Assembly (NCBI GenBank): GCA_019306365.1
Contig: JAFDLS010000006.1
Location: 1-32,492 of the forward strand
DNA from: Deltaproteobacteria bacterium
Lineage (GTDB): Bacteria > Desulfobacterota > Desulfarculia > Adiutricales > JAFDHD01
Length of the DNA: 32,492 nt
Direction of reading: 5' to 3'
Shown here: piece after piece, positions 5,305 to 27,590 of the stretch
Numbering within the stretch: position 1 is the stretch's first letter
Layout of the letters: each line of letters starts with the position of its first letter
Notes under the pieces: generated by a model
What the model was told of the DNA's origin: nothing
The model's input: only the letters and a program-made list of their open reading frames with translations
Databases searched by the model: none
Position numbers and translations under genes: made by a program

Positions 5305-5925
5305 ATGAACACCGACCTGGATATTATCTTGAACGCCTTGAAAAAGCGGTTGGCGCGAACTCAGGATTGGATTCAATCTCCTTATCTATACCTTGATCCA
5401 GAGGGAGTCCTGTATTTATTTCAGCATTTAAGCGGCTTGAACAATCTTCCTTTGGCCAGGCTGAATCCCGGAGGAAACGAACAAGTTGAATTAAGTCATA
5501 GAGAAGGCACAGGCGGCGCCATCCCGATTCATATTGTTTACCAGGCGCTGTTCCCGCTCCTGAAGGAAAAAATACCTCAGCCAGCCAAAAAGGAAGATTT
5601 CCATGGATTACGCCAGCGTTATGCCTGGGTTAAAGGCACGCTTCAGGGAACTCATTTTCCTGACGGTAATTTCAATGTGGAAATTTTAATAGGTGATATT
5701 CGCGGTGTGCTTTTTTTTACGAAAGATTTTTTTAGCTCGACGGTAAGACCTCTTTTGGATCATGACCGGATTTTTACCTTGCAGTGTCCGGTAGAGGCTT
5801 TGGTATACGTTCATGGTGAAGTAAGGAATCAGGTATTTTATCATCAAACATTTGGCGACAACAAGGAGCATGATTGGCTGCCTTTGGTACCAGTGGCCGT
5901 GCAAAGCGTCAGCACGGCGGATTAA
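5305..5925 (+). CDS. Hypothetical protein, 206 aa
   Basis: Not recognised. It is a soluble protein with no signal peptide or membrane segment. It begins with an amphipathic helix (LDIILNALKKRLARTQDWI), followed by mixed alpha/beta sequence rich in aromatic residues. I see no nucleotide-binding, metal-binding or catalytic motif. The ATG lies 10 bp after the preceding stop and its Shine-Dalgarno is weak, consistent with translational coupling to the upstream coiled-coil membrane protein. The two may work together, but the sequence gives no more than that. Confidence 0.68.
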   Translation: MNTDLDIILNALKKRLARTQDWIQSPYLYLDPEGVLYLFQHLSGLNNLPLARLNPGGNEQVELSHREGTGGAIPIHIVYQALFPLLKEKIPQPAKKEDFHGLRQRYAWVKGTLQGTHFPDGNFNVEILIGDIRGVLFFTKDFFSSTVRPLLDHDRIFTLQCPVEALVYVHGEVRNQVFYHQTFGDNKEHDWLPLVPVAVQSVSTAD

Positions 5926-6031
5926 AGCCCATAAAACAATATCATATTATTGCGTAAGGGGAAAAATAACCCATTCCCTGTGGTTATCCGCCAGGGAAGG
6001 TAAATCAATCTTTAAAAATAGGTTAGGACTT

Positions 6032-7075
6032 ATGATCCTTTTACTGCTTTTCTTTTTTATCGTGCTTTTCGTCTCATTCATTTGCTCTTTCTCCGAAGCG
6101 ATTCTCCTGTCACTTACACACAGCCACGCCGCCTTAATGGAGAAGGAAGGCTTTAAAAGCGGACCAATACTGGTAGCCCTGAAGGAACGAATTGATCGCC
6201 CCCTGGCCGCCATTCTAACATTGAATACGATATCCCATACCGTAGGCGCTGCTGGTGTCGGCGCTCAAACACTACATCTGTATGGAAGCAAGTGGGTGGC
6301 CCTTTCATCGGGAATACTTACTTTTTTCATCTTAATTTTTTCTGAGATCGTGCCTAAAACATTGGGGGCGGTTTATTGGAAACAGTTGTCGTCGCCAGCC
6401 GCCTATTTGATCCGCTTTTTAATCGTTATTGCTTATCCTGTCGTCGTGATTATCGAAGCTATATCCAAGTTAATTGCCTCAGGAACCGTTCAAACCAAAA
6501 TGACACGGGAAGAAGTGATTGTGGCGACTGAGATTAGCGAGGATGAAGGAGAATTGTTTAAACGAGAAGAGCGTGTTATTAAAAACCTCCTTCATTTAAA
6601 TAAAATTCACGCCAGGGATATCATGACACCAAGAGCGGTACTTTTCGCCCAGCAGAAGGATAAAACCATTGGTGAGGTGATAAAAGAGAACACACCGCTT
6701 CAATTTTCCCGTATCCCGATTTTTGGGGAGGATTTGGATGATATCGTAGGCATGGTTTACCGGTTTGATCTCTTGAACCTATTTGCCCGGGAACAGACAA
6801 CCAAGACACTGGAAACAATTGCCCATCCTGTTCATGTGGTGCCTGATTCCAAATCCGTAGCTGAAACCCTGGATGATTTTATTAAACAGCGGGAGCATCT
6901 CTTTTTAGTCGTGGACGAATATGGAGGCACCGCCGGATTAGTAACCCTGGAAGATACGATTGAAACCTTACTTGGGGTTGAGATAGTCGATGAATCTGAT
7001 TCGATTGAAGATATGCAGGAATACGCCAGGAAAAAATGGGCCCGAAGAAGGAGGGATGAGGGCCTTTATGAATAA
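6032..7075 (+). CDS. DUF21/CBS-pair (CNNM/CorB-type) membrane protein
   Basis: Member of the CNNM/CorB/HlyC-like family linked to Mg2+ or cation transport. The DUF21 domain occupies about residues 1-155, with hydrophobic segments near 1-20, about 60-110 and 125-150. It contains the conserved S-E-A-I-L-L-S-L and F-S-E-I-V-P-K-T-L-G motifs. A CBS pair follows (about 190-320, with A-R-D-I-M-T-P-R and V-D-E-Y-G-G-T-A-G-L-V-T-L-E-D). The protein stops about 30 residues after the CBS pair and lacks the usual C-terminal CorC/HlyC domain. The frame is open upstream to 5852, but that extension overlaps the previous gene and has no membrane character, so ATG 6032 was chosen. The chosen protein is 347 residues. 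Transport function is a family inference. Confidence 0.88.
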   Translation: MILLLLFFFIVLFVSFICSFSEAILLSLTHSHAALMEKEGFKSGPILVALKERIDRPLAAILTLNTISHTVGAAGVGAQTLHLYGSKWVALSSGILTFFILIFSEIVPKTLGAVYWKQLSSPAAYLIRFLIVIAYPVVVIIEAISKLIASGTVQTKMTREEVIVATEISEDEGELFKREERVIKNLLHLNKIHARDIMTPRAVLFAQQKDKTIGEVIKENTPLQFSRIPIFGEDLDDIVGMVYRFDLLNLFAREQTTKTLETIAHPVHVVPDSKSVAETLDDFIKQREHLFLVVDEYGGTAGLVTLEDTIETLLGVEIVDESDSIEDMQEYARKKWARRRRDEGLYE

Positions 7076-7411: not shown

Positions 7412-7552
7412 GAGACCCCTGCAAAACTTCGTCCTATAGCTGTCCTCTTTGTCAGGCTCAAATTTAAGTCCCCGAAATATTAGTAATATTCCTGCGGGTT
7501 AAATTTTCACCTTCCGCGATTTCAATAAAATTACCGGTTTTGCAGAGGTCTC
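7412..7552 (+). mobile_element. MITE-like repeat, copy A
   Basis: 141-bp copy of the dispersed family. It has terminal inverted repeats GAGACC(C)CTGCAAAAC ... GTTTTGCAGAGGTCTC (one mismatch in the left end). Perfect 5-bp flanking duplications AATTT occur at 7407-7411 and 7553-7557. Compared with copy C it lacks about 30 bp of the GC-rich left-centre module and instead reads ctctttgtcaggct. No coding capacity. Confidence 0.8.
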
Positions 7553-8585: not shown

Positions 8586-9347
8586 TTATCTATATTTCTC
8601 ACGCCGTTTTTTGCGAGAAGCGCGTTTCCAGTCCTGGCCTTTCTTCTCTTTCTTCTTTTTTTCTAATTGTTGGCGTCTCGTTGGATCCGGATCCCGGAAC
8701 GGATCCAGCACAAAGGTTCCAGGGGTAGTGGGTTCTGGAGCTGTTTGGGGTTTCTTTTTTTCAAGAACAGGTTTTTTCTTTGGCTGAGGAGGCGCATAGA
8801 AAAATTTGGGGCTCAATTCTTTGACCAAATAGATCAATTCCTGCGAACGATAAAAAATCGTGCCTTGTTGACTGGCCTTTGCCGCCTGGATCGTAAGTAG
8901 AATCGGTTGGATCTCCCGGCGGGAGCCCACGCGCAGGGCCATCTCCTTCGTCTGGAATAAGGGGACCCATGGCCACTGGCCAGGTTTGAGACCGTGTTGA
9001 TGGATAGCTGGGTAGGCCTTGCGCCGGGCGGCGTAATACAGCAGAGCAGGGGGGGTGGCTTCTGGAAACGGTCCCAGTTCAAGGTGTGAGTCCTCCGGCG
9101 CTACTCGCACCTGTTTGCCAACTATTTCAAACGAGGTGTCTTCCGGTTCTCTTATAAGTGTTTCCAGGTGACTTTCTCTTACAAACGACCAGCCTTCTTC
9201 CTCTCGCAGGGCGATCAGGAGTTCTTTGATTGAAATAAAACCCTCTTCATCCGTAAATAAACCGAATTCATCCGGCCTGCGGCCAAGTATATAAGCCAGC
9301 ATTCGGCTCAGGCTTTGTTTTTGCTGTTTGTGTTTTTGTTTTGCCAT
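8586..9347 (-). CDS. Tpt1/KptA-like (RNA 2'-phosphotransferase family) protein, likely non-canonical
   Basis: A 253-residue protein. The N-terminal region (about residues 12-95) has the KptA winged-helix layout: S-R-M-L-A-Y-I-L-G-R-R-P-D-E-F-G-L, then D-E-E-G-F-I-S-I-K-E-L-L. The middle (about 95-185) matches the ADP-ribosyl-binding half, with A-L-L-Y-Y-A, a G-L-K-P-G segment and an I-L-L-T-I-Q-A strand. KptA normally transfers a splice-junction 2'-phosphate from RNA to NAD+. Here the usual LRH, YHGT and RHHVHLS motifs read LGRRP, YYAA and WPWVPLF, so classical activity is doubtful. The C-terminal tail (about 190-253) is low-complexity and rich in Lys, Arg and Pro, likely binding nucleic acid. 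The 5' end and upstream DNA recur at 18718-18880. Confidence 0.72.
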   Translation of the reverse strand: MAKQKHKQQKQSLSRMLAYILGRRPDEFGLFTDEEGFISIKELLIALREEEGWSFVRESHLETLIREPEDTSFEIVGKQVRVAPEDSHLELGPFPEATPPALLYYAARRKAYPAIHQHGLKPGQWPWVPLFQTKEMALRVGSRREIQPILLTIQAAKASQQGTIFYRSQELIYLVKELSPKFFYAPPQPKKKPVLEKKKPQTAPEPTTPGTFVLDPFRDPDPTRRQQLEKKKKEKKGQDWKRASRKKRREKYR

Positions 9348-9433
9348 TCCTAAATTTATCCGGGCTTCCTCTCTTTGATTGGGATTTTAGCACGACAGGG
9401 AAATAAAAAAAAGGCCGGCTTGGTTAGCCGGCC
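9269..9433. repeat. 165-bp direct repeat, left copy (island boundary)
   Basis: About 95 percent identical to 18718-18880 and in the same orientation. It covers the first 26 or so codons of the kptA-like gene, its upstream region and the hairpin at 9413-9433. Differences are a few substitutions plus one-base length changes in T and A runs. Similarity stops abruptly at both ends. Confidence 0.9.
9413..9433 (-). terminator. Intrinsic terminator, minus strand (duplicated)
   Basis: Perfect 8-bp stem GGCCGGCT / AGCCGGCC with a 5-nt loop, followed on the minus strand by eight T. The same terminator stands after hsp20 at 18860-18880. Here it faces island DNA, so it is probably a carried-over copy of the hsp20 terminator. 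Confidence 0.8.
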
Positions 9434-9485
9434 CCAGACCGTTGACAAAGTCCCCACTGTGGCGCCTGTCTTCTTTTAATAATTT

Positions 9486-9640
9486 GAGGCCTCTGCAAAA
9501 CTTCGTCCTTTAGGTGACCTCATGAGCGCCGCTTCGCTGACGCGGCGGCGGCATATATCAGACTCAAATTTAAGTCCTCGAAATACTTGGTAATATTCCT
9601 GCGGGTTAAATTTTTTCTCCGCGATTTTGACCAAAACACT
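9486..9640 (+). mobile_element. MITE-like repeat, copy B (right end lost)
   Basis: Left terminal repeat GAGGCCTCTGCAAAAC at 9486 and the internal GCGCCGCTTCGCT, CTCAAATTTAAGTCC and TTCCTGCGGGTTAAATTTT blocks match the family. The right 16-bp end is missing; similarity fades after the GCGATTTT block near 9640. Confidence 0.75.
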
Positions 9641-9679
9641 AATATTAAAATAGCTTCTGTCAACTTGGGATAAAAAACA

Positions 9680-9713
9680 ACGGGCGGCCTTGGATTAACT
9701 CAAGACCGCCCGT
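9680..9713 (-). terminator. Intrinsic terminator of the solute-binding protein gene
   Basis: Stem ACGGGCGG-x-CTTG / CAAG-x-CCGCCCGT (one internal mismatch, loop 8 nt), followed on the minus strand by TTGTTTTTTAT. It lies about 30 bp beyond the stop codon of the gene ending at 9745. Confidence 0.8.
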
Positions 9714-9744
9714 AATGAGCCTTTAAATCAGCTTCAATGCGAAA

Positions 9745-11631
9745 TTATGGATGACCATCCTTGAACCATAAAGGATGTGTCCATCTGAACGCTTCTCTAT
9801 GTTCCAGATACATCTTATTGTTCCAGCCCATAACGTTTTTACGCCAGGCCCTGATCTCCATGGAATACCATAACCAGGCGTCTTCATAGTTGTCATAAAG
9901 GACTTTTTCGAGTTCAAAATAATTTTTCTGTCTCTGATCCGGATCCACCAATTCACGGCCGGCTTCAATAAGCTCAATGGCCTTCTGATTGGCGGATCGG
10001 CCGTAATTGAAACCGCCCTGGGTATGATACATTCCGGTTGCAGCCAGGTCCGGATCGTGCACCCAGGGCCACATACCAAAGAGAATATCATACTCGAGGT
10101 TTTTCAGCCGGTCTGAAACAGCGACCTTATCCAATGCCTCCAGTTCCCAGTCTATGCCAACTCTCGCCAGCATAGCCTTCACAGCCACGCCAACCGATTG
10201 AGACTCCGGATTGTTGGGTACATTGCCTTTTATTTTCAGGCCTTGAGCATAACCGGCTTCAGCCAGAAGCTTTTTAGACAACTCGGGATCATAGGCCACC
10301 GGTTTCAAATTGGGGTTGTGAGCCCAGTGATCCACAGGGTACAAGCAACTGGCGATTCTGGCCAAACCAAACTGCGTTCCAGCGATCAGGGCTTTCCTGT
10401 CGATCGCATGAGAGATAGCCTTACGCACTCGAATGTCCTGACACACCCCTTTTGTATGGTTAAAAAATAAATAGTTTACGTGAGGCACGGGATTGACATG
10501 AAATGTGAGACGCGGGTCGTTCTTGACTATTTCATACTGAGATTTATTAATGTCCATCTCATCGACTTTGCCCGCTTTTAGATTGGCGAGTTGAATCGAA
10601 GGGTCAGGGATGACCGGAAATTTGATCCCATCGAAATAAGGCATGTCAGGACGCCCGACATGCTTACCGAACCACCAGTTAGGGTTCCTTTTAAGCAGGA
10701 GATAGTTGCCGGGCTTGGCGGTATCAAGCATGTAAGGGCCGCTGCCAACCGGGTGTGTATCTAAATTTTGAGCTCCTTTGGCTTTAGCAGCCGCGTCATC
10801 GGCCTTTTTTTGCGCCGAGATGGCGGCCTTACGCGCTTTTTCCGCCTTTTTTTTGGCCTTCTCCGCTTCGGCGCCACCCTTGGAAACGGCTTTCTTGGCT
10901 TCTGCTTCAGCTTTGACCGCCTTGGTTTTCGCGGCTTTGGCCTTTTTAGCTAACTTCTTCGCTTCCCCCAAAGCCACGTCCCCTTTAAGGGCCTTGGCTG
11001 ATATCACCATTCCGGGAACGCTGTTTAAGATACCGAGAGCTCCAGCCCATGGTCTTTTTGTATGCAGCTTGACAGTGTATTCATCCACCACCTCGACCTT
11101 TTTAATCGGCTTGAGCCAGGCCCGGCTCCATGCTCCGTTTTTTTTGTTCTTGATCCAATCAATCTGATATTTGAAACCTTCTGCGTTAAAAAAGGAGCCA
11201 TCATGAAACTGAACGCCTTTTCTCAACCGCATAATGATGGTAACCGGATCGACGTACTCCCAGGATTCAGCCATAAATGGGGTTGAGGGTTTGTATTCAC
11301 CATTAATCCAAATAAGTCTGTCGTACATAAAATTTATGGGTATCCAGGAATTAACCGGCCAGTGGTTTGGGTTCATCAAACCGACGTATTTCGAGGCGGC
11401 GATGCGGTACACGCCGCCTCGTACCGGTTTGGTTGGCCAGTACCTTTCACCATATTCCATCCAGGAGGTCTCGTCTTGTGAGCTCTCCTGTCCCATCACT
11501 GGAAGCACCAACGGAGAAATCAATAAACATAAGGCCGCCAGAACGAATACGCTAAAGCTATACCATACGGGCATCCCGGCCATTGGAGCAACAAGTCCAT
11601 TGGAGCTTAACGCTTTCTTTTTTTCTCCCAT
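9745..11631 (-). CDS. ABC transporter family-5 solute-binding protein with Lys/Ala-rich insert
   Basis: Periplasmic binding protein of the OppA/DppA/NikA class (SBP_bac_5). A signal or anchor segment occupies about residues 21-47. The fold signature appears at 110-150 (Y-K-P-S-T-P-F-M-A-E-S-W, L-R-K-G-V-Q-F-H-D-G). Later landmarks are P-V-G-S-G-P-Y-M-L (about 294-302) and D-I-R-V-R-K-A-I-S-H-A-I-D-R. Residues about 218-288 are a foreign-looking, highly charged Ala/Lys/Glu helix that other members lack; without it the length is near the family norm (about 555). No permease or ATPase gene is in the window, so it is an orphan component. The ligand (peptide, sugar acid, nickel or aromatic) cannot be read from the sequence. 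It lies 101 bp after the flavoprotein gene in the same direction, probably under the same control. Confidence 0.9.
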   Translation of the reverse strand: MGEKKKALSSNGLVAPMAGMPVWYSFSVFVLAALCLLISPLVLPVMGQESSQDETSWMEYGERYWPTKPVRGGVYRIAASKYVGLMNPNHWPVNSWIPINFMYDRLIWINGEYKPSTPFMAESWEYVDPVTIIMRLRKGVQFHDGSFFNAEGFKYQIDWIKNKKNGAWSRAWLKPIKKVEVVDEYTVKLHTKRPWAGALGILNSVPGMVISAKALKGDVALGEAKKLAKKAKAAKTKAVKAEAEAKKAVSKGGAEAEKAKKKAEKARKAAISAQKKADDAAAKAKGAQNLDTHPVGSGPYMLDTAKPGNYLLLKRNPNWWFGKHVGRPDMPYFDGIKFPVIPDPSIQLANLKAGKVDEMDINKSQYEIVKNDPRLTFHVNPVPHVNYLFFNHTKGVCQDIRVRKAISHAIDRKALIAGTQFGLARIASCLYPVDHWAHNPNLKPVAYDPELSKKLLAEAGYAQGLKIKGNVPNNPESQSVGVAVKAMLARVGIDWELEALDKVAVSDRLKNLEYDILFGMWPWVHDPDLAATGMYHTQGGFNYGRSANQKAIELIEAGRELVDPDQRQKNYFELEKVLYDNYEDAWLWYSMEIRAWRKNVMGWNNKMYLEHREAFRWTHPLWFKDGHP

Positions 11632-11732
11632 CCTACTGCCTTCCTTTCAAATTGTCTAAACAGGTTTCAGACGCAACCAAAATCAACTTGATATGCTTCT
11701 CCTCAATCGCGATAATCCTCCATGTTTAAGCG

Positions 11733-13178
11733 CTAATCAGAAATCCCGGCCAAACTCTTAGCCCACTCTTTTTTAGTTTCAAGATCGCTCTCCCGCTCGA
11801 TGAGAAGTTTCTGGCCTTGCGGTGAGCCCGCTCCGTGAAGAGCTTCGCTAAGAAAGTACACAGATCCTTGACCGTAGCAAAAATACTCAATGAGCCGCAT
11901 AAGTTTCATACGATTCTCAGTTGGAACCCCGTCAACGCCTTTGAGGTATTTATTTACATATTTTCCGATTATCGGATCAGTAAAATCCTTGTGAGACGGC
12001 ATGGTCGCCACCAGCCCTCCGGCGATATCTTCAGCCAGCCGAGCGATTTCATAAGTCAATCGACCTACATGCAGCTTGGTGACATTGGTATACATAAGGT
12101 TCACGTTGAATATGCCCGAGGGTGTACTGTATCCTTCGACGCAACTGGTCAGGCCGCAGGCATAAATAGTTCTGGCCATATGCACCATTTCCGTGAGTTT
12201 GTCGCGAATGATTGAATTTTTCGCCGTGCCGTTATATTCAGCCATGAGAGCGGCCGCGCCGATCACGATATCCGCAATAGCGCTTTTACCCGCGCCGTAG
12301 CAATTGCGGTGATACCCGGCAAAACGATGGATCATGGGAAAGGACCATTTCCATTCCCCGCACATGAAGACTCTATCCCAAGGAACAAAGACGTCATCGA
12401 AGATCATAAGGGTTTCATTGCCGCCTTGATTAATGCCGCCCAAATCGAAGAGGTCCCCTTCAAGCCTGCGCGTATCGGAAGGCTGACGTCCCATAATGTG
12501 AAAAAGACCTTCAGCATCCGCAGGCACCGCAAAGGCTACCGCGTAATCCTGCTCTTCCTCTCTCAAGGTCGTACATGGAGCGACAATGTGTTCATGGGCG
12601 TGCACGGCTACTGACTGATGCATCTTTGCTCCCCGAACCACGATGCCATCGCTTTTCTTTTCCACGACCCTGACATACATATCAGGATCAGATTGCTGAA
12701 TAGGCCGAAGACTGCGATTGCCCTTAGGATCGGTAATGGCCCCGCTGATGGTAAAATCATTGTCCTGGATATATTTAAGATACTTAAGAAACCTTGGATG
12801 ATATTCCGTTCCCAGATCATCGTCCATTTCATAGCTTACACTCCCAATAGCGTTGATCGCGTCCGCCCCTACGGTTCGGGAGTTTCCTCGCCCGGTAAGC
12901 CGGGCGGTTATCTGGATCATTTTGTATTTCTTGATCAGGTCTTCAGCGTTTTTCCAAAATGTTACGCATCGGTTCACCTTCTCGCCGGATTCCAGGGTTG
13001 CCGTGAAAAGTTCCTCGTATTCCGGGTTGAAACAGAGTTCATAAGTGAGGGCCACTGAATTCAGAGCGGGCTGTGCCAGCGGATGTTCCGTGATATTGAT
13101 CAGTTCCCCCATGAAATAAACTCGTTTTTTGATTTTTGTCATGCTTTCCACGTATTGTTCTGCTGTCATCAAAGCCAT
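11733..13178 (-). CDS. AbfD/HpaB-family flavoprotein lacking the Fe-S ligands
   Basis: A 481-residue member of the family that holds 4-hydroxybutyryl-CoA dehydratase (AbfD) and 4-hydroxyphenylacetate 3-monooxygenase (HpaB). Length and order match: N-terminal helical domain, H-E-H-I-V-A-P (195-201), a flavin-contacting middle domain, F-D-D-V-F-V-P-W-D-R-V (260-270), and a C-terminal helical domain. AbfD binds [4Fe-4S] through Cys99, Cys103, His292 and Cys299. Here the equivalents, from my motif alignment, are Gly98, Thr102, His290 and Gly297. The protein should therefore bind FAD but not the cluster, and is not expected to act as AbfD. HpaB-type hydroxylation needs O2 and a reductase, neither evident here. 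Shine-Dalgarno AAGGAG is well placed. It is the first gene of the minus arm facing the LacI operators. Confidence 0.87.
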   Translation of the reverse strand: MALMTAEQYVESMTKIKKRVYFMGELINITEHPLAQPALNSVALTYELCFNPEYEELFTATLESGEKVNRCVTFWKNAEDLIKKYKMIQITARLTGRGNSRTVGADAINAIGSVSYEMDDDLGTEYHPRFLKYLKYIQDNDFTISGAITDPKGNRSLRPIQQSDPDMYVRVVEKKSDGIVVRGAKMHQSVAVHAHEHIVAPCTTLREEEQDYAVAFAVPADAEGLFHIMGRQPSDTRRLEGDLFDLGGINQGGNETLMIFDDVFVPWDRVFMCGEWKWSFPMIHRFAGYHRNCYGAGKSAIADIVIGAAALMAEYNGTAKNSIIRDKLTEMVHMARTIYACGLTSCVEGYSTPSGIFNVNLMYTNVTKLHVGRLTYEIARLAEDIAGGLVATMPSHKDFTDPIIGKYVNKYLKGVDGVPTENRMKLMRLIEYFCYGQGSVYFLSEALHGAGSPQGQKLLIERESDLETKKEWAKSLAGISD

Positions 13179-13289
13179 GGTGAATATCTCCTTAAAATCT
13201 TGATTGGTAAATTAAAATCGAACCTTGAGTTGTTTTTCAAAAAGGTTTTTTTGTTTTTAATTACTAAAAATCACCTAAATAGTTATTAT

Positions 13290-13303
13290 TGAAACCGTTT
13301 TCA
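13290..13303 (-). promoter_or_regulatory. LacI-type operator O1 (minus arm)
   Basis: Read on the minus strand the site is TGAAAACGGTTTCA, an imperfect palindrome with the central CG typical of LacI-family operators. It lies 39 bp downstream of a minus-strand TTGACA (13342-13337) and 112 bp before the flavoprotein start. The -10 hexamer for that promoter is not clear. The regulator is presumably the LacI protein encoded at 15016. Confidence 0.6.
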
Positions 13304-13426
13304 TTTTTTTTGACAGGTATCACCCTTATCCATTTTTGTCAAGAATTATTTTCATTCATCAAGAGATCATTTTTTGGCTAATTGATTTAATTAATTGAAA
13401 AATAAAATTAAAAATTTCATTTTCAC

Positions 13427-13454
13427 TTGACATCTTTATCTTTTTACATAATAT
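13427..13454 (+). promoter_or_regulatory. Promoter of the plus arm (UroD-LacI-epimerase-LarA)
   Basis: TTGACA (13427-13432), a 16-nt spacer and TAATAT (13449-13454) predict a start near 13461. The operator at 13463-13476 lies at about +2 to +16, where a bound repressor would block initiation. The transcript would have a leader of about 370 nt (to 13834), with no gene I can support and one modest hairpin (about 13524-13556). Confidence 0.6.
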
Positions 13455-13462
13455 TCATGATA

Positions 13463-13476
13463 TGAAAACGGTTGCA
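13463..13476 (+). promoter_or_regulatory. LacI-type operator O2 (plus arm)
   Basis: TGAAAACGGTTGCA differs at one position from O1 read on its own transcribed strand. Both operators point the same way relative to their promoters and lie 36-39 bp after a TTGACA. The paired sites, 160 bp apart, suit co-repression or looping by one LacI dimer or tetramer. Confidence 0.62.
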
Positions 13477-13834
13477 GTAAATAGAAAGATTCACAAACAG
13501 TAATGTACTAATTCAGCCCGGTTGCCGAATTAACCGTCAGGGCGGTTCGGAGAATGTTTCTAAAATAATGACCGTTGATAGGGGTAAAAGCCATCAAATA
13601 AAAATTGAACGATCTGTCTGGATTGATTACCAGAAACATTTTCCCTTTAATCAAGACAATTGCTTGAATGTTTAAAGAATCCAAAAGCGGCGATGGTGGC
13701 GGCAACCGCTCCCATTGGCCGGGTATAATTTATAAGGAAGGGTTTCAAAAAAATAACAACCTGGTAGAAAGAGCTGCGGCGAAGGCCCTATAATCTCGAC
13801 TCAGTTTTTTGTTAATAATACAAGAGAGACGCTT

Positions 13835-14977
13835 ATGGAAAAGTTATCATCACGAGAAAGAGTATTAGCGGCGCTTAATCATGAGGAACCTGACAGAGTT
13901 CCCCTAGACCTGGGGGGAAACGCGACAACAATCGAGGCAGCGCCTTATGAAGAGCTTAAAAAGCATTTGGGGATAAAAGGCGAACCCAGGCTTTTTGTCA
14001 GGGATCATGTGGACCCGCCGGAAGAATTGCTGAAAAAGCTCCATATAGACACACGATACGTCAGGCTGAAACCGCCCCGTCATTTCAAAATCCAGATTGA
14101 TTCAGACAATTCTTATCTTGATGAATGGGGCACCAGGTGGAAAAAAGCTGAATCTAGCTTATACTGGGATCCTGTTGATTATCCTTTAAAAGATGCCACT
14201 ATAGATGACTTGGAATCCTATCCATGGCCGGACCCTGGCGATCCGGGAAGAATAGAGGGATTAAGAGAAGAAGCAAAAAAACTGCGAGAGAGCGCTCAGT
14301 ACGCCATTGTAGCTGACGCGATAGGCCTGGGCGTCTTTGAATCATCATGGGTACTTCTCAGGGGGCCTGAGCGGTTTTTCATGGATATGGCTCTGGACAA
14401 ACCTTTTGTTAACGCTCTCTTGGAAAAATTAACAGATTTGCATATTAAGTTTCATCAAAATTACCTCGACGCGGTCGGTGAGTTTATTGACGTGATTGCT
14501 GTCAGTGATGACCTGGGGGGTGAAAATGGGCCCTTGATTTCTCCGGCCTCCTATGAAGAACTGATAAAGCCTTTCCAGAAAAAACTCTGGAAATCCATAA
14601 AAAACAACACGGAAGCCTTTTTGTTCCTGCACAGCTGCGGGAGCATTCACAGGTTTATACCAGACCTGATAGAACTGGGCGTAGACATTATCAACCCGGT
14701 TCAGGTAGCGGCCAGGGATATGGATACCAGGAAACTTAAAGAAGAATTTGGTGATAAAATTACTTTTTGGGGCGCTGTTGACACCCAGAGGATTCTTCCT
14801 TTTGGTTCACCTGATGATGTTGAGCGTGAGGTCAAAAAACGAATCTCGGATCTAGCCCCTGGCGGCGGCTACGTACTTAGCGCCGTTCATAATATTCAAG
14901 CGGGAGTGAGTCCGGAAAATGTTTGCAGGATGTACGAAACGGCCCGTCAATACGGGAAATACCCTGTTGATATTTAA
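13835..14977 (+). CDS. UroD-family (corrinoid methyltransferase type) protein
   Basis: A 380-residue member of the uroporphyrinogen decarboxylase superfamily, MtaA/CmuA branch, not a heme enzyme. The start S-S-R-E-R-V-L-A-A-L-N-H-E-E-P-D-R-V-P and the segment L-H-S-C-G-S-I are hallmarks of the zinc-dependent cobalamin:thiol methyltransferase group, where H-x-C supplies two zinc ligands. The third ligand, normally Cys near the C-terminus, reads His in S-A-V-H-N-I-Q-A-G-V-S-P-E-N (about residue 350). Such proteins take part in O- or N-demethylation together with a corrinoid protein, but no corrinoid protein gene is in the window. It is the first gene of the plus arm and should be derepressed with the rest of the island. 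Substrate unknown. Confidence 0.85.
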   Translation: MEKLSSRERVLAALNHEEPDRVPLDLGGNATTIEAAPYEELKKHLGIKGEPRLFVRDHVDPPEELLKKLHIDTRYVRLKPPRHFKIQIDSDNSYLDEWGTRWKKAESSLYWDPVDYPLKDATIDDLESYPWPDPGDPGRIEGLREEAKKLRESAQYAIVADAIGLGVFESSWVLLRGPERFFMDMALDKPFVNALLEKLTDLHIKFHQNYLDAVGEFIDVIAVSDDLGGENGPLISPASYEELIKPFQKKLWKSIKNNTEAFLFLHSCGSIHRFIPDLIELGVDIINPVQVAARDMDTRKLKEEFGDKITFWGAVDTQRILPFGSPDDVEREVKKRISDLAPGGGYVLSAVHNIQAGVSPENVCRMYETARQYGKYPVDI

Positions 14978-15015
14978 TGGTTCGCGTGAACTGATATTTG
15001 AAAATTGGAATTAAG

Positions 15016-16047
15016 ATGGGAAAAATAACTATCAAGGAAATAGCCAAACTCGCGGGAGTTTCTAACGCGACCGTTTCTAGAGTCATACATTCCCCTCACC
15101 TGGTCAATCAAAAAACACGGGAACGTATCCAGCAGGTCATGGAAAGCAACAACTATGTCTACGATGCCGTTGCCGGTGATCTATCCCGGAAAAAGGCTTC
15201 AGTAATTGGCCTCATCATTCCAACAATTAAAAACTCGATCTTCAGCAGTACGGTCTACGGCATTCAGGAAAAAGCTGAAGAAGGAGGATACACAACCATA
15301 ATCGGTAACTCCAATTATGACACCAAATCCGAACTAAACATCATGACGCTTTTTCAGCAGCGGCGAATCGCCGGACTGATCCTGACCGGATTGTCAGAGG
15401 GAGTTTCGAAAAGGATCAGGGAATTTATGCAGCTTGGTATCCCTAGTGTGGTGACCTGGGAAAAACTGGATTCAAGCGATATATGCTATGCGGGCTTTGA
15501 CAACTTCAAAGCCGCTTACTCAATGACCAACCACTTGATCGGCCTCCGACATAAACGGATCGGACTCATCATCGGGCCCTACACCAGAGTAAGAAGGGTT
15601 CGAAGCCGTCTAGACGGATACAAGACGGCCCTAAACGAGCACAGCATTCCTTTTGATTCTGATTTTATCTTTGAATCCGAGTACACCCTGGTTGACGGCA
15701 AGGAGGCCATGCAAAGGCTTCTATCATTACCTGATCCTCCCACAGCGGTATTCGCGGCCAGCGACGTGCTGGCCATGGGAGCTTTGACAGCCGTAAAAGA
15801 AAATGGCCTGAGGGTGCCTCAAGACATCTCGATCGCTGGGTTTGATGACCTTGATTTCACCGCCTACTTGGACCCTCCTCTCACCACGGTCAGAATTCCC
15901 GCCTTTGAAATGGGGCAGTTGGCCGTGAAAATGCTTTTTGAAATGATAGATGGAGAGATGAATCAAGTGCGGCAATACTGTCTGGACACGGATCTGATTA
16001 TCAGACAATCCTGCGCCGAACCCGCTTTAGACAATATAAGCCTTTAA
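15016..16047 (+). CDS. LacI-family transcriptional regulator
   Basis: A 343-residue repressor of the catabolic LacI/GalR type. The helix-turn-helix is at the N-terminus (I-T-I-K-E-I-A-K-L-A-G-V-S-N-A-T-V-S-R-V, residues 4-23). The hinge helix (D-L-S-R-K-K-A) follows, then a periplasmic-binding-like sensor domain with V-I-G-L-I-I-P-T and A-S-D-V-L-A-M-G-A-L-T-A and I-S-I-A-G-F-D-D motifs. ATG 15016 gives the normal N-terminus; a TTG at 14998 would add six residues. It lies 38 bp after the UroD gene, so it is probably in the operon it controls, with operators at 13290 and 13463. The inducer is unknown but is likely a substrate or intermediate of the island enzymes. Confidence 0.95.
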   Translation: MGKITIKEIAKLAGVSNATVSRVIHSPHLVNQKTRERIQQVMESNNYVYDAVAGDLSRKKASVIGLIIPTIKNSIFSSTVYGIQEKAEEGGYTTIIGNSNYDTKSELNIMTLFQQRRIAGLILTGLSEGVSKRIREFMQLGIPSVVTWEKLDSSDICYAGFDNFKAAYSMTNHLIGLRHKRIGLIIGPYTRVRRVRSRLDGYKTALNEHSIPFDSDFIFESEYTLVDGKEAMQRLLSLPDPPTAVFAASDVLAMGALTAVKENGLRVPQDISIAGFDDLDFTAYLDPPLTTVRIPAFEMGQLAVKMLFEMIDGEMNQVRQYCLDTDLIIRQSCAEPALDNISL

Positions 16048-16094
16048 TAAAATTCAAGTAATCAATTAACTGAAGTTTATAGGAAGAAAGTGAA

Positions 16095-17066
16095 ATGAAT
16101 ACATCGGAACAAGGATTTCAAAATAAGACTTCTTCGGTAAAGGTGCTGGTTACCGGCGCTGGCGGTTTCATCGCGTCATATCTCATCCCTGAGCTTCTTG
16201 ATCTGGGCGCGGAAGTAGTAGCCTTTGATATCGCGAAAAATCCAGCCGGCCTGGAAGGCATAAGGGACCGTATAATTTACGTTAGGGGTGATCTGGCTTC
16301 ACCTGCCGATTTATATCGAACCATGATGACATATCGGCCCACCGAGGTCTTTCATCTGGGGTCCATCTTGGCGGGACCCTGTGACGACAACCCCATTCAA
16401 GGATTTAAAATCAATTTCGAATCCACCATGACCCTGCTGGACGCCTCCCGGGCGTTAAATGTGCGGCGTTTTGTGATGATCAGCTCTATTGCTGTCTTTG
16501 GTAAAGACGCGGTTGAACCGGTTCAAGACGAAGCCGTAAAAAATCCAGCCAATGTTTACGGTCAGACCAAGCTGGCCAGTGAACATATGCTTCTATGGTA
16601 CGCGCGCCAACACGGCCTCGACACCCGCGCCCTGCGTTTTGCCTGGGTTTTCGGACCTGGCCGGAAAACCGGCATTACGGCTTTATACTCCTCTTTACTG
16701 CTGGACGCCATAGCTAATGATGAGTCCCTTGAAGTGACAAACCCGGATGAAACGGGGGATTGGCTTTATGTCAAAGACGCGGTCAAGGCAATCCTGACCG
16801 TCTGGCAGGCAAAGGAACCCGGCCAGAGGATTTACAACGTCGCCGGGGGAGTGCATTCGATCAGGGATGTCATTGAGATAGCGAAACAAATAAAACCAGG
16901 GGCTCGGATAACCTTGCGTGAAGGCGGTGCTGCCGCCTCTCCCTACCCATCCGCTTATGACGATCAGGTTTTTCGAAAAGAGACCGGCTTCAAACCGGAT
17001 TACACCATTGAAAAGGCTGTCAGGGAGCATCTGGAAATCGTTTCAGGGAAGAAAGTTGTTTCGTAA
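16095..17066 (+). CDS. NAD-dependent epimerase/dehydratase (extended SDR)
   Basis: A 323-residue extended short-chain dehydrogenase. The Rossmann motif V-L-V-T-G-A-G-G-F-I-A-S (about 18-29) has Ala where the third Gly of TGxxGxxG usually stands. Asp42 after the second strand (V-V-A-F-D) indicates NAD(H). The catalytic set is visible: Ser in M-I-S-S-I-A-V-F-G and Y-G-Q-T-K (Tyr and Lys). A C-terminal substrate domain carries N-P-D-E-T-G-D-W-L-Y-V-K-D-A-V. Family members act on nucleotide sugars, sugar acids or threonine-like substrates. In this context a hydroxy or sugar acid is plausible, but that is inference. The ATG has an AGGAAG site 8 nt upstream. Third gene of the plus arm. Confidence 0.9.
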   Translation: MNTSEQGFQNKTSSVKVLVTGAGGFIASYLIPELLDLGAEVVAFDIAKNPAGLEGIRDRIIYVRGDLASPADLYRTMMTYRPTEVFHLGSILAGPCDDNPIQGFKINFESTMTLLDASRALNVRRFVMISSIAVFGKDAVEPVQDEAVKNPANVYGQTKLASEHMLLWYARQHGLDTRALRFAWVFGPGRKTGITALYSSLLLDAIANDESLEVTNPDETGDWLYVKDAVKAILTVWQAKEPGQRIYNVAGGVHSIRDVIEIAKQIKPGARITLREGGAAASPYPSAYDDQVFRKETGFKPDYTIEKAVREHLEIVSGKKVVS

Positions 17067-17128
17067 TTACCTATCAAAAGAAAGACGGTTGTGTTTTCAA
17101 GGCACAGCGGCCTGATTTGGAGATAGCA

Positions 17129-18559
17129 ATGCAAGAAGTAAAACTGGACTATGGAGATGGTTATATGACGGTTGAGCTCCCGGACTCGGCTACCGTGGTG
17201 CGATACGGTCAAACCTATACGGATCCTCCTGGGGTTGTTGATCCTGTAGAAGCCACGAGAACGGCGCTTCGAAATCCTCTGGGCTTCCCTCCGCTTCGAG
17301 AGCTGGGGGGGGCTGATAAAAAAGTCGTGATTGGTTTTCCTGATCGTGTTAAAGGGGGGAATCAAACAAATTGCCACCGGCGGATTGCCATCCCCCTTAT
17401 TGTGGAGGAACTCCTGCAAGGTGGCACGAAGATAAAAAATATCACCCTCGTATGCGCCATCGGACTCCATCGCAAAAACACCCTTGAGGAATGGTACTGG
17501 TATCTTGGTAAGGAAATAGTGGACCGTTTCTGGCCGGACCGATTGGTGAATCATGATGCTGAAGCCCCGGACCTCTGTGATTTCGGGACAGATGAAATGG
17601 GCAATGTGGTTCAATGCAACCGGCTCATGTCCGAGGCCGATCTATCGATTGTCTTGGGTCACTGCGCGGGCAATCCTTACGGCGGATACAGCGGCGGGTA
17701 TAAGATGATAGTGACCGGTTTATCCGGGTGGAGATCTATTGCTTCGCATCATTGTCCGTCAACCATGCATCGTGACGATTGGCTGGGTGCTTCCGTGCAC
17801 TCACACATGCGTAATCAATTTAAATCCATTGGCCAGGCCATGGAAAAAGGTATCAATAAAAAATTCTTTGCTGTGGATGCTGTAATAGGGCAAAAGTCTC
17901 AAATTTTAGACGTACAAGCCGGAGACCTTGAGGCGGTTGAAAAAGCGACTTGGCCTTTGGCGGGTAAACGAACCGATGTATTTTTGGACATGGAAGAACC
18001 CGCTGATATCTTAATCATGGGTCTGCCGCGTAATTTTCACTACGGTCCGGGTATGGGCACTAATCCTATCCTCATGAGTCTGGCTGTCGGGGGACAGCTT
18101 TCGAGAGCCTGGAACGCCTTTCGAGAAGGGGGGGTCATTATCGCCGCTTCAGTTTGCGACGGCTGGTTTAATCCGAATTGGTTCCCCTCTTACGAAGAGA
18201 CCTATCGCGCCTTGCAAAAATATTGCGACCCTGCCGACTTTCTCGTGTCAGAGGACGCCCATCGCATCGCAACAGATATTGAATACTGTTTTAGATACTC
18301 AAATTGTCACACCTATCACCCTTTTCACGCCATGTCGATGATCAGCGGAGGCAGTGTCACAGCCCTTCGAACAGCCGCCGCTTTTATGCCCGGAGCTAAA
18401 GCTCCTCAATATGCGCGAGGAATGGGTTTTATCCCAACAACAACCTTTGAGGAGGCATACGAGCGCGCCCAGAAAATCGTAGGCAAGAATCCTCGTATCC
18501 TTTGCACTCCTGAAGCCTTTTCAGGAGGTGTAGGCGTTCACCTGCACGCGAAAGCCTGA
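17129..18559 (+). CDS. LarA-like (nickel-pincer) enzyme, catalytic His replaced
   Basis: A 476-residue homologue of lactate racemase LarA (DUF2088), whose members use the nickel-pincer nucleotide on 2-hydroxy acids. L. plantarum LarA uses His108 and His174 as acid/base pair, Lys184 to hold the cofactor and His200 as a Ni ligand. Here, numbered from 17129, His114 (A-I-G-L-H-R), Lys192 (G-Y-S-G-G-Y-K) and His208 (S-H-H) are present, but the His174 position is Asn182 (G-N-P-Y-G-G-Y). A one-base mechanism, oxidation, or a different substrate is likely. ATG 17129 was chosen over TTG 17117 because GGAG lies 6 nt before it. No larB, larC or larE is in the window, so the cofactor must be made elsewhere. 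Last gene of the plus arm. Confidence 0.85.
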   Translation: MQEVKLDYGDGYMTVELPDSATVVRYGQTYTDPPGVVDPVEATRTALRNPLGFPPLRELGGADKKVVIGFPDRVKGGNQTNCHRRIAIPLIVEELLQGGTKIKNITLVCAIGLHRKNTLEEWYWYLGKEIVDRFWPDRLVNHDAEAPDLCDFGTDEMGNVVQCNRLMSEADLSIVLGHCAGNPYGGYSGGYKMIVTGLSGWRSIASHHCPSTMHRDDWLGASVHSHMRNQFKSIGQAMEKGINKKFFAVDAVIGQKSQILDVQAGDLEAVEKATWPLAGKRTDVFLDMEEPADILIMGLPRNFHYGPGMGTNPILMSLAVGGQLSRAWNAFREGGVIIAASVCDGWFNPNWFPSYEETYRALQKYCDPADFLVSEDAHRIATDIEYCFRYSNCHTYHPFHAMSMISGGSVTALRTAAAFMPGAKAPQYARGMGFIPTTTFEEAYERAQKIVGKNPRILCTPEAFSGGVGVHLHAKA

Positions 18560-18583
18560 CATTTCAGAAAAATCTTTTTTAAT

Positions 18584-18615
18584 AACCTGGACCGGCCATT
18601 AAAGTGGTCGGGTTT
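18584..18615 (+). terminator. Possible terminator after the LarA-like gene
   Basis: Interrupted inverted repeat AACC-tg-GACC / GGTC-gg-GTTT with a 12-nt loop, then TGTCT. It starts about 25 bp after the stop. The T tract is weak. Confidence 0.4.
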
Positions 18616-18665
18616 GTCTATCCAAAAAAGTAGTTAGTTTAAGGTGGATTTCCCATCCATTAACT

Positions 18666-18712
18666 CGGCTTCAAGGGAGCGAAAGGCATAGCCTGAAGCG
18701 GAGTTGAAGCCG
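18666..18712. repeat. Inverted repeat with nested hairpin at island right end
   Basis: CGGCTTCAA (18666-18674) / TTGAAGCCG (18704-18712), enclosing AGGC-ata-GCCT. It ends 5 bp before the right direct-repeat copy begins. No function is assigned; it could be debris of the event that brought in the island. Confidence 0.5.
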
Positions 18713-18717
18713 TCAGC

Positions 18718-18880
18718 CATCCGGCCGGCGGCCAAGTATATAAGCCAGCATTCGGCTCAGGCTTTTTTTTGCTGTTTGTGTTTTTGTTTTGCCATTCCTA
18801 AATTTATCAGGGCTTCCTCTTTTTGATTGGGATTTTAACACGACGGAGAAATAAAAAAAGGCCGGCTTGGTTAGCCGGCC
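18718..18880 (-). pseudogene. Severed 5' end of the kptA-like gene (163-bp direct repeat, right copy)
   Basis: About 95 percent identical to 9269-9433. It contains the start codon region and roughly the first 25 codons of the kptA-like gene on the minus strand, a one-base loss in the T run that breaks the frame, the upstream spacer and the terminator hairpin. The gene body is missing: just beyond lies island DNA. Hsp20 follows immediately on the other side, so before the insertion hsp20 and the kptA-like gene were probably neighbours. Confidence 0.85.
18860..18880 (-). terminator. Intrinsic terminator of hsp20
   Basis: Stem GGCCGGCT / AGCCGGCC, loop 5 nt, followed on the minus strand by seven T. 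It lies 21 bp beyond the hsp20 stop codon. Confidence 0.88.
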
Positions 18881-18901: not shown

Positions 18902-19342
18902 TTAGTGAACTTTGATATCGATCTTCTTGGGCTTGGTTTCTTCCTTCTTGGGTAAAGTCACCTTGAGAACTCCATGTTTCATTTTGGCGTCAATTTTTTC
19001 ATGATCAACGTTTTCTGGTAAACTAAACCTTCGAGTATATTTGCCAAATCTGCGTTCCCTCAGGTGATATTCTTCTTTCTTTTCTTCCTTTTTTTCAGAA
19101 TGCTCGGCCGAAAGTCTTAATTCTCCATCGTTGATTTCAAGCTTAATTTCTTTTTCAGTAAACCCAGGCAGTTCAGCCCGTACAATGTATTCGTTCTCTC
19201 TCTCTGAAACATCAACTCTCGGTATCAAAGTACTCTCAGTTTCCTCAAGAGTTTCAAGGAAGAAAGGTTTGAAGAAATCATCGAACATTCTCCTTCTTGG
19301 AAGCAAACCCCGAAACGGCTCATAAAGCGTTAAAGATGTCAT
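18902..19342 (-). CDS. Small heat-shock protein, Hsp20/alpha-crystallin family
   Basis: A 146-residue ATP-independent holdase chaperone. The N-terminal arm (about 1-40, E-P-F-R-G-L-L and F-F-K-P-F-F) precedes the alpha-crystallin domain (about 42-135). That domain carries P-R-V-D-V-S-E, Y-I-V-R-A-E-L-P-G-F and the conserved H-G-V-L-K-V-T-L-P-K motif. The C-terminal tail K-K-I-D-I-K-V contains the I-x-V-type oligomerisation element. Shine-Dalgarno AGGAGG lies 7 nt before the ATG. It is transcribed divergently from the sigma-32 gene, the expected partner in heat-shock control, although the visible promoter is of sigma-70 type. Confidence 0.96.
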   Translation of the reverse strand: MTSLTLYEPFRGLLPRRRMFDDFFKPFFLETLEETESTLIPRVDVSERENEYIVRAELPGFTEKEIKLEINDGELRLSAEHSEKKEEKKEEYHLRERRFGKYTRRFSLPENVDHEKIDAKMKHGVLKVTLPKKEETKPKKIDIKVH

Positions 19343-25019: not shown

Positions 25020-27095
25020 CTATCCCTCAGAATCCTTAGCAGTCTCGGCCACAATTTTTTCATAGATGTGAGGCGGAACCTCTTCGTAGTGATCAAATTC
25101 GATTGTAAAAGAGCCTCGTGCGCCAGTTATGGACTTCAGGGTTGGAGCATAATCCATTACATCCGCCTGGGGTACCTGAGCGCGAATGTATTGCTTCCCG
25201 CCCTTAGTATCCACGCCCTGAACCTTCCCTCGGCGGCTGTTCAAATCTCCAATAACATCGCCCATGTATTCATCCGGCACATTGACCGTGAGAAGCATAA
25301 TCGGTTCGAGCAGGGTCGGACTGCTCTCAAGAAATCCCTTTTTGAAACCCATCGATCCCGCGATTTTAAAAGCTATTTCTGACGAATCCACAGCGTGAAA
25401 GGAGCCGTCAACCAGTTTAACTCTGAGATCCACAATAGGGTTGCCGGTGATCACGCCTCCGGCCATGGCCTCGACAATGCCCTTTTCCACAGCGGGAATG
25501 AACTGCTTGGGTATTGCTCCGCCAACAATCTTATTTTGAAATTCGAACCCCATACCGCGCGGTAACGGCTCGATTTCCAGCCAGGTATCGCCGTACTGCC
25601 CGCGGCCGCCGGTTTGTTTTTTGTATTTGCCTTGAACGCGAGCCTTTCCCTTGACAGTTTCCTTGTAAGGCACCTTGGGTGTATTGAGCTGAACTTCAAC
25701 CCCAAATTTACGCTTGATTCTTTCAAGTGTAACTTCAATGTGAATTTGGCCCATGCCAGAGAGGATAACTTCCTTGGTCTGGTCATCCCTGGAAAGCTTC
25801 AGTGTTACGTCCTCTTCTATTATCTTGGACAAGGAGCTAAAAACTTTTTCCTCGTCGCCTTTCGTTTTCGGGCTTACCGCGTAGGAGACAATGGGCGGCA
25901 TGGGGTCGAGAGTGGGGTATATGATCGGTTCGGACTCATCACAGATGGTATTGCCGGTGGTGGTCCCTTTAAGCTTGGCCACGGCAACAATGTCTCCCGG
26001 GCCGGCTGATTCAACCGGTTTCTGACTTTTACCTTCCAGAGATAAAAGCTGGCTAAAACGTTCCACCTTCTGACTGGAGGAGTTGTAAAAGGTGGAATCG
26101 TGAGTAATTGTACCAGAAAAAACACGGAAAACAGATAGTTGGCCAGCATAAGGGTCGGTAATGGTTTTAATAACCAGGCCTGAAAAGGATTCATCCTCTT
26201 TGGGTTCCCGCGCGATTTCACTGTTGTCTTTGGGGGAAAACCCTTTAACCGAACCCCTGTCCTGAGGCGAAGGTAATGCGCTGACAACCAGGTCCAGCAG
26301 ATGCGATATGCCAATAAGCGATGATCCCGCGCCGCAGCAGATCGGCGCAAGACTTCTGGACTTGACCCCGTTGACCAGACCCTGATTGATTTCTTCGTCT
26401 GTTAGTTCCCCGGCGTCAAGGTACTTTTCAAGCAGTTCATCGTCTGTCTCAGCGATATTTTCGATTAATTGTTCGCGCCAGGTCTGGACAGTTTCCGCCA
26501 GGTCCTCCGGAATATCGCCCTGTTTGAATTCGGCAGTGTTTGCTTCATATATGTAGGCTTTTTCATCCAGGAGGTTAACTAAACCCTTAAAATCGTGCTC
26601 AGCCCCAATCGGTACTTGAACAGGCACGCATTTCATGTCAAATAAATCACTCAACTCATTAACAATTTTAAAAAAATCGGCTCGTTCCCGATCCATCTTG
26701 TTAATAAAGACAATTCGAGGCAGTTCGCGGTTGTCGGCAAATCCCCAGACTCGTTCAGTACCGATTTTTATTCCGTCTACGGCGTCGATCAGCACCAGGG
26801 CGCCATCCACTCCCTGAAGGCAGGTCATGGTATCGTTAATAAAATTTTCATCCCCAGGTGTGTCGACAAAGGAGACTACCCTTTTCTTCCACGAAAAATT
26901 ATGAAAAGCGGAGCTTAAGGAAGCTCTGCGTTTGATCTCTTCCGGTTCAAAATCAAGAATACTGGTGCCCTCATCCGGTCTGCCTAAACGAGTGGTTACT
27001 TTCGTAAAATATAAAAAGGCTTCGGCAAGCGTTGTTTTGCCTGCTCCGCCGTGAGAAATGAGGGCAATATTGCGTACTTGAGTGATGTCTTCCAT
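25020..27095 (-). CDS. Elongation factor G, variant (FusA2-like)
   Basis: A 691-residue translational GTPase with all EF-G domains. G1 is S-H-G-G-A-G-K-T-T-L (14-23), where canonical EF-G reads AHxDAGKTT. G3 is D-T-P-G-D (about 78) and G4 is N-K-M-D (about 131). The switch I signature R-G-I-T-I is replaced by R-R-A-S-L-S-S-A-F. Domain IV (G-R-G-Q-Y-G-D and G-G-A-I-P-K-Q-F-I-P-A-V-E-K-G) and domain V (G-D-V-I-G-D-L-N-S-R-R-G-K-V-Q-G) are intact. These features fit the second, divergent EF-G found in many bacteria, not the str-operon FusA. Its role (elongation, recycling or stress) is not settled for this branch. It has a strong promoter and an AAGGAG Shine-Dalgarno. Confidence 0.9.
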   Translation of the reverse strand: MEDITQVRNIALISHGGAGKTTLAEAFLYFTKVTTRLGRPDEGTSILDFEPEEIKRRASLSSAFHNFSWKKRVVSFVDTPGDENFINDTMTCLQGVDGALVLIDAVDGIKIGTERVWGFADNRELPRIVFINKMDRERADFFKIVNELSDLFDMKCVPVQVPIGAEHDFKGLVNLLDEKAYIYEANTAEFKQGDIPEDLAETVQTWREQLIENIAETDDELLEKYLDAGELTDEEINQGLVNGVKSRSLAPICCGAGSSLIGISHLLDLVVSALPSPQDRGSVKGFSPKDNSEIAREPKEDESFSGLVIKTITDPYAGQLSVFRVFSGTITHDSTFYNSSSQKVERFSQLLSLEGKSQKPVESAGPGDIVAVAKLKGTTTGNTICDESEPIIYPTLDPMPPIVSYAVSPKTKGDEEKVFSSLSKIIEEDVTLKLSRDDQTKEVILSGMGQIHIEVTLERIKRKFGVEVQLNTPKVPYKETVKGKARVQGKYKKQTGGRGQYGDTWLEIEPLPRGMGFEFQNKIVGGAIPKQFIPAVEKGIVEAMAGGVITGNPIVDLRVKLVDGSFHAVDSSEIAFKIAGSMGFKKGFLESSPTLLEPIMLLTVNVPDEYMGDVIGDLNSRRGKVQGVDTKGGKQYIRAQVPQADVMDYAPTLKSITGARGSFTIEFDHYEEVPPHIYEKIVAETAKDSEG

Positions 27096-27135
27096 GTCTG
27101 CTCCTTTTTGACAATCAATGAACCTAAAGTAAAGA

Positions 27136-27164
27136 AGTTTAAGTAAACATTAGGGAAATGTCAA
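27136..27164 (-). promoter_or_regulatory. Promoter of the EF-G-like gene
   Basis: On the minus strand TTGACA (27164-27159), a 17-nt spacer and TAAACT (27141-27136). The start would be about 35 nt before the ATG. Confidence 0.7.
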
Positions 27165-27167
27165 GGA

Positions 27168-27305
27168 AAAGAAATAGGCCCAGTATGTAGTTTTAAAACA
27201 TGGGTAACGCTCCGAAGGTATATTTTATGATGAGGATATGCTAATCTTCATCGTACTCAACGGAGGTTACCCATGTTTGAAATTACGACAAAGAAATAGG
27301 CCCAG
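27168..27305. repeat. Palindromic element between 16-bp direct repeats
   Basis: AAAGAAATAGGCCCAG occurs at 27168-27183 and again at 27290-27305. Between them lies an 83-bp inverted repeat (27196-27278): AAACATGGGTAACgCTCCG matches the reverse complement of CGGAGGTTACCCATGTTT with one extra base. It is probably the remnant of an insertion sequence or a small non-autonomous element. Confidence 0.6.
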
Positions 27306-27590
27306 CGCGATGATAGAAAAATATTGAATTTACATTTTTTACTCGTTAAGAACCTTGCCCAAAGAAAAGAAGCATTAATTTTTAGTATTAATAACAAATA
27401 GTTACATATTATAATCTATTTTTGGCATCAGTTTGTGAAAAAGACTATTTGAAAATCTATATTCCAGCCGGTCTCTATACAGCAAGGTCGATGGAGTTTG
27501 TTAGACAGGCAAAAACATCCAAAAGATGAAGCAGCTTTGTTAAGCCTTCAGAAATTTGATCTTTTGTTATGCTTTGAATTATCATAACTT

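Follow-up and report, generated by a model that had tools for sequence, protein, structure and literature searches.

Probable insertion of a metabolic gene block with target duplication between hsp20 and a kptA-like gene of a deltaproteobacterium

The window analysed here is a 32,492-nucleotide stretch of DNA from a Deltaproteobacteria bacterium (Desulfobacterota; Desulfarculia; Adiutricales; JAFDHD01), namely positions 1 to 32,492 of contig JAFDLS010000006.1 in assembly GCA_019306365.1 (hereafter G000). It carries a 9.3-kb block of metabolic genes that lies between hsp20 and a kptA-like gene and is framed by two direct copies of a host segment of about 165 bp. The best explanation for this arrangement as a whole, to which we attach a probability of roughly 0.78, is that the block was acquired laterally and inserted between two formerly adjacent genes with duplication of its target. 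G000 is a metagenome-assembled genome (3,586,339 bases, 383 contigs, 90.5% complete); the sole congener compared (G001, at about 72% identity) is probably also a metagenome assembly, judged by its fragmentation.

A duplicated host segment frames the block

A preliminary description, made from the sequence alone, had reported direct repeats about 95% identical at 9269-9433 and 18718-18880, in the same orientation, the left one continuing into the full kptA-like gene and the right one into hsp20. Both observations were confirmed: BLASTN aligns the two copies on the same strand with 157/165 identities (95.2%), two 1-base gaps and E = 5e-73, and the two neighbouring genes were recognised by their PTS_2-RNA and HSP20 Pfam matches. 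The copies, 165 and 163 bp long, consist of host sequence in direct orientation on either side of the insert. Read on the minus strand, the segment comprises the terminator that follows hsp20, an 86-bp region upstream of kptA and the first 26 kptA codons. The features concerned are as follows:

8586-9347, minus strand: intact kptA-like gene (RNA 2'-phosphotransferase family; Pfam PF01885, PTS_2-RNA, E = 2.5e-16; G001 orthologue 72% identical in amino acids), whose first 26 codons fall inside the left repeat
9269-9433: left target copy, made up of kptA codons 1-26, the 86-bp upstream region and the terminator hairpin
9411-9435, minus strand: terminator hairpin of the left copy, GGCCGGCTAACCAAGCCGGCC; the repeat homology ends where the hairpin ends
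18718-18880: right target copy, with the terminator, the upstream region and a dead kptA 5' fragment
18902-19342, minus strand: hsp20 (Pfam HSP20, 1.3e-26), which adjoins kptA in G001

The left copy is intact and reads on into the complete kptA-like gene. The right copy passes via its terminator hairpin to hsp20, and its kptA portion is a dead fragment because the loss of one G at codon 11 shifts the frame and leaves 12 codons before a stop at codon 13. The pair diverges by 3.7% substitutions (CI 1.4-7.8%), with 8 changes between the copies; when these were polarised by eye against G001, where possible, five fell on the right copy and one, synonymous, on the left. The repeats could in principle recombine and release the insert, though the two copies now differ by these 8 changes. 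No third copy of the segment was found in the whole of G000, and the idea that it is an independent dispersed repeat, which the preliminary description had named as a possible refutation, was rejected, as this assembly holds two copies only.

The empty site in the congener

The proposal that hsp20, the terminator and kptA had once been contiguous is borne out by G001. On its contig C18, hsp20 (27809-28246) and the kptA-like gene (26938-27693) are adjacent on the same strand, with one terminator and a single copy of the segment between them and no island. This contig aligns with the window on both sides of the junction, from the window start (f1, rplI, dnaB, hflX and others) up to roughly 24,428, with DNA identities of 69-74% in the long alignments, and the alignment contains nothing of 9434-18717 at the hsp20-kptA locus. 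The converse situation, a relative that keeps the island at this place without any repeat, was not encountered; the locus of G001 simply has no island. Conservation of the hsp20-kptA adjacency across the order was rejected, since among the 30 kptA loci examined only that of the congener has a nearby hsp20.

A second copy of the block points to lateral transfer

The genes of the block are present in G001, at another place. Its contig C121 carries the genes for a solute-binding protein (SBP), an HpaB-family flavoprotein, a UroD-like protein and a LacI-family regulator, followed by the start of an epimerase gene, in the same order and the same orientation as in the window; they lie beside other genes of that contig and not at kptA. 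The DNA identity is 90.7% over window positions 9683-13497 and 86.4% over 13801-16159, above the 69-74% of the long backbone alignments. The synonymous divergence (dS, Nei-Gojobori) between the two copies amounts to 0.23 for the SBP gene, 0.39 for HpaB, 0.45 for UroD and 0.68 for LacI, versus 1.32 to saturation for the usable backbone genes (the CBS-domain gene, open reading frame (ORF) 5852-7075, was left out of this comparison), so that the similarity of the block to the relative's copy conflicts with that of the backbone. The block of G001 is also foreign in composition (46.4% GC, vs 51.4-51.8% for its contigs), and a LarA protein of the kind encoded at the right end of the window's block was found in 0 of 40 other genomes of the order. 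Taken together, the low dS relative to the backbone, the foreign GC in G001 and the absence of this LarA from the rest of the order indicate that the block was laterally transferred, and it occupies two different sites.

In the window, the block (46.1% GC) is close to its flanks (45.7%). The comparison of GC and codon usage suggested in the preliminary description was run, and island and flanks displayed no contrast in GC, GC3, synonymous codon use or tetranucleotides. This does not count against an insertion, because the lateral history shows in the dS values and in the foreign GC inside G001. Its source could be either a lineage resembling the window's own or a shared donor with a comparable GC content. 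A plasmid origin was rejected, the plasmid collection giving only LarA homologues below 60% identity. The identity between the block copies (window 9683-16159 vs C121 9940-16126) declines from about 91-96% over the SBP gene to about 84% over LacI, and the block may be a mosaic.

Gene content and regulation of the block

The gene content announced by the preliminary description (transport, flavoprotein, UroD, LacI, epimerase and LarA) was recovered as claimed. Family searches of all the island genes detected no integrase, transposase, directionality factor or mobilisation gene in the insert. Its features are:

9680-9713, minus strand: SBP terminator, where the homology with the G001 block begins (9683)
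9745-11631, minus strand: family-5 extracellular solute-binding protein (Pfam SBP_bac_5, 5.6e-74; 93% amino acid identity in G001 C121)
11733-13178, minus strand: HpaB-family flavoprotein with 4-hydroxyphenylacetate 3-hydroxylase N and C domains (96% in C121)
13290-13303: probable LacI-family operator TGAAACCGTTTTCA, a 14-bp palindrome (perfect TGAAAACGTTTTCA in G001)
13463-13476: second probable LacI-family operator TGAAAACGGTTGCA, a 14-bp palindrome (perfect TGAAAACGTTTTCA in G001)
13498-13800: 303 bp that lie here between the LacI operators and UroD and have no counterpart in the G001 block
13835-14977, plus strand: UroD/MtaA-like methyltransferase-family protein (Pfam URO-D, 4.8e-27; 91% in C121)
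14998-16047, plus strand: LacI-family regulator (88% in C121)
16095-17066, plus strand: NAD-dependent epimerase/dehydratase family protein (Pfam Epimerase, 4.8e-42)
17117-18559, plus strand: LarA-family (nickel-pincer-nucleotide) 2-hydroxyacid racemase/epimerase homologue (Pfam Lar_N, 1.6e-35)

Both LacI-operator-type palindromes fall in the interval that separates the divergently oriented HpaB and UroD genes, and those of G001 occupy matching places; as both are perfect there, they support a reading of the block as a single unit that would be regulated by LacI. The 303-bp difference corresponds to a later insertion here or to a deletion in G001; this sequence has one weak partial match elsewhere in its own genome (C250, 69 bp at 78%).

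The SBP gene has no permease or ATPase gene beside it. At about residues 223-290, its product bears a Lys/Ala/Glu-rich stretch of some 65 residues within the family-5 domain, which is kept in G001. After the G001 protein, the next-best match to UroD among 395 genomes of the phylum is at 57%, and for the epimerase the rest of G001 offers weak matches only. LarA has close relatives at 60-81% in 40 loci of a genome contig collection. In many genomes it recurs in the company of LacI and/or epimerase genes, and ABC transporter genes often separate them. The complete six-gene block was not found in the named genomes, where this association of LarA with LacI and/or epimerase recurs instead. The protein resembles the LarA superfamily (PMC7583248, PMC11770544) in its Lar_N domain and in the location of such genes beside LacI and epimerase genes in several other genomes. 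Yet, unlike the named LarAH equivalogs, it scores far below all their cut-offs (best score 180 bits vs a cut-off of 740), although the Lar_N domain itself is present; similarly, the protein encoded at 11733-13178 does not reach the HpaB equivalog cut-offs. The function of the block would be the use of a hydroxyacid-type substrate, and the label "catabolic" given to it in the preliminary description is for this reason a guess.

The edges of the insert

The preliminary description took the whole of 9434-18717 as the island that had entered. The insertion is supported, but the block common to G001 starts at about 9683, with the SBP terminator, and not at 9434; the left 250 bp or so (9434-9682) are not part of it. 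Other sequences are found at the two edges:

9434-9485: about 50 bp of unassigned origin between the left repeat and the following element
9486-9628, plus strand: truncated copy of a miniature inverted-repeat transposable element (MITE) whose right terminal inverted repeat (TIR) is missing; 173-bp family with 16-bp TIRs and 5-bp target duplications
18600-18714, plus strand: dispersed repeat of 115 bp, found three more times in the assembly, on C236, C378 and C287

A 24-bp probe from the first of these sequences (9440-9463) has no second match in the assembly, and 9434-9485 has no match in the G001 contigs C18 and C121 or in the loci of relatives. The MITE lost one end about 195 bp from the left repeat. 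Its 173-bp family, whose 16-bp TIRs read GAGACCTCTGCAAAAC and whose target duplications are mostly of 5 bp, is a high-copy one. The window has copies at 7412-7552, 9486-9628, 27591-27763, 28518-28689, 30516-30687 and 31417-31525; in the 3.6-Mb assembly a first look gave 434 candidates, and at least 40 copies were scored. The family was not found in the G001 contigs C18 and C121. On the other side, the 115-bp repeat stops 3 bases short of the right target copy. This repeat holds the motif TTAAGGTGGTCGGGTTTGTC, which makes up a 40-bp palindrome at C133, a contig where just the first 27 bp or so of the repeat appear, in palindromic form; the copy of C287 lies near an ORF with weak IS481-type domains (a transposase remnant). 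On contig C378 of G000, this repeat is fused to the MITE, which suggests that dispersed repeats recombine in this genome.

The left MITE and the right repeat are unrelated and are thus not two copies of one insertion sequence (IS), so that a composite transposon was rejected. Nor is the insert as a whole bounded by a short target duplication or by terminal repeats. The window has no tRNA gene and no Rfam match, and an island targeted to a tRNA or other RNA gene was also rejected. The repeats at the edges may be marks of later rearrangement there.

Order of events and mechanism of insertion

The simplest order would be the split of the two species, the sharing of the block and then its insertion between hsp20 and kptA. 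The ancestral arrangement would have been hsp20-terminator-kptA, as G001 keeps it. After the split from the congener, the putatively LacI-controlled block (SBP, HpaB, UroD, LacI, epimerase and LarA) would have entered between the two genes without a recombinase of its own, and the target would have been duplicated on both sides. As a result of this duplication both neighbours would have stayed whole, hsp20 retaining its terminator and kptA its upstream region and complete coding sequence, and the extra kptA fragment next to hsp20 would then have decayed. The block would move laterally among relatives rather than having been inherited vertically at the kptA site. The insertion seems to postdate the separation of the two block copies, since the divergence of the repeat pair (3.7%) is well below the dS of the island genes between G000 and G001, which in turn is far lower than that of the backbone, with the caveat that one repeat copy is partly constrained and that gene conversion could make the pair seem younger.

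Among known systems, the geometry appears closest to insertion with long target duplication (Nobusato et al. 2000, Gene 259:99, as presented in the accounts of PMC1643837, PMC3874152, PMC3031569 and PMC4978471), of which it could be a new example. One of these accounts puts the target duplications that accompany the insertion of restriction-modification genes "in the order of 100 bp" (PMC3874152). As far as these accounts describe the process, the present case shares with it direct target duplications of that order, an empty site in a related genome and the lack of a responsible transposase, integrase or other recombinase. It differs in that the process is, from the same accounts, known mainly for Helicobacter restriction-modification genes, in contrast to the 9.3-kb, apparently LacI-controlled metabolic block of another lineage found here, and in that the duplication would here be older and is decayed. 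At somewhat less than even odds, we tentatively favour illegitimate recombination of the incoming DNA at a long staggered break, or template switching, as the joining step, which would amount to an insertion of this type.

The first alternative to this joining step, which we regard as possible but rather unlikely, is a homology-driven integration. Either a circle or a linear molecule homologous at one end would have carried the segment from the terminator to the 5' end of kptA from a near relative, giving hsp20-segment-island-segment-kptA, and the 5% difference between the repeat copies would then partly reflect the divergence of the donor. A single crossover of a circle yields exactly the observed geometry, and both single crossovers of circularised incoming DNA and homology-facilitated illegitimate recombination are documented (PMC3240628); as in those cases, non-replicating foreign DNA would integrate and the homologous segment would be duplicated. 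Unlike them, the incoming DNA would here need the 165-bp segment. There is no known reason for a circle to carry it, no donor carrying it was seen, and the assembly holds no third copy; the plasmid collection contains nothing close to LarA, and the frameshift, the clearest of the changes, of the right copy resembles decay after insertion and not an imported allele.

It seems improbable that the 165 bp are the mere surviving remainder of a larger duplication, a merodiploid in which hsp20-kptA stood on both sides of the island until deletions with endpoints in the dispersed repeats cut it back. The proximity of such repeats to both target copies and the fusion on C378, an indication that rearrangement between repeats occurs in G000, are consistent with it. 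Nevertheless, it requires several extra steps, and neither a second hsp20 nor any second kptA beyond codon 26 was found by self-BLAST of the window or in the search of its own genome.

A still smaller probability is given to an integrase-driven island that lost its integrase, the repeats being attL and attR. As in the dusA-specific islands and SXT at prfC (PMC8409611), the insertion cuts into the 5' end of a target gene yet leaves that gene with a complete start. Unlike those islands, the insert has no site-specific integrase or mobility gene, the congener uses a different site for its block, and the duplication covers the whole upstream region with the terminator instead of a short core. The lost integrase is less likely mainly because of these last two differences; the absence of a tRNA gene from the window and the restriction of the hsp20-kptA adjacency to this genus also speak against it. 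The 5' end of kptA, which is the site here, is not known to serve as an attachment target. The least probable alternative, an assembly artefact merging two strains with and without the island in one contig, might be encouraged by the fragmentation of G000 and by the dispersed repeats at both edges, where assemblers misjoin, but the right copy is frameshifted in kptA and hence not simply the intact empty-site allele, the copies are distinct at 8 positions, and the gene block itself is real, since it was independently assembled in G001.

Some points do weigh against the insertion with target duplication that we favour. The truncated dispersed repeats at the edges could, through rearrangement during or after the insertion, hide the original junctions. 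The presence of the epimerase-LarA half in G001 cannot be seen because C121 stops within the epimerase gene, after its first 22 codons or so. A single congener at about 72% identity does not settle the exact ancestral sequence or the polarity of some differences, and the 5:1 polarity of the changes is in itself not significant (binomial p = 0.22). Finally, the metagenomic nature of G000 leaves a small probability to a two-strain mosaic.

Implications

Accessory blocks in environmental bacteria often lack mobility genes, and the route by which they enter a genome is then unclear. The block described here moved between genomes though it encodes no recognised DNA-moving enzyme. The empty site and the second copy of the block in a sister species make the order of events datable relative to the species split, and the 165-bp duplication illustrates how two neighbouring genes can both stay whole when DNA inserts between them, which may be the reason why this insertion survived. 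Should further strains show the same pattern, the range of insertion with long target duplication would widen from restriction-modification genes to include metabolic ones.

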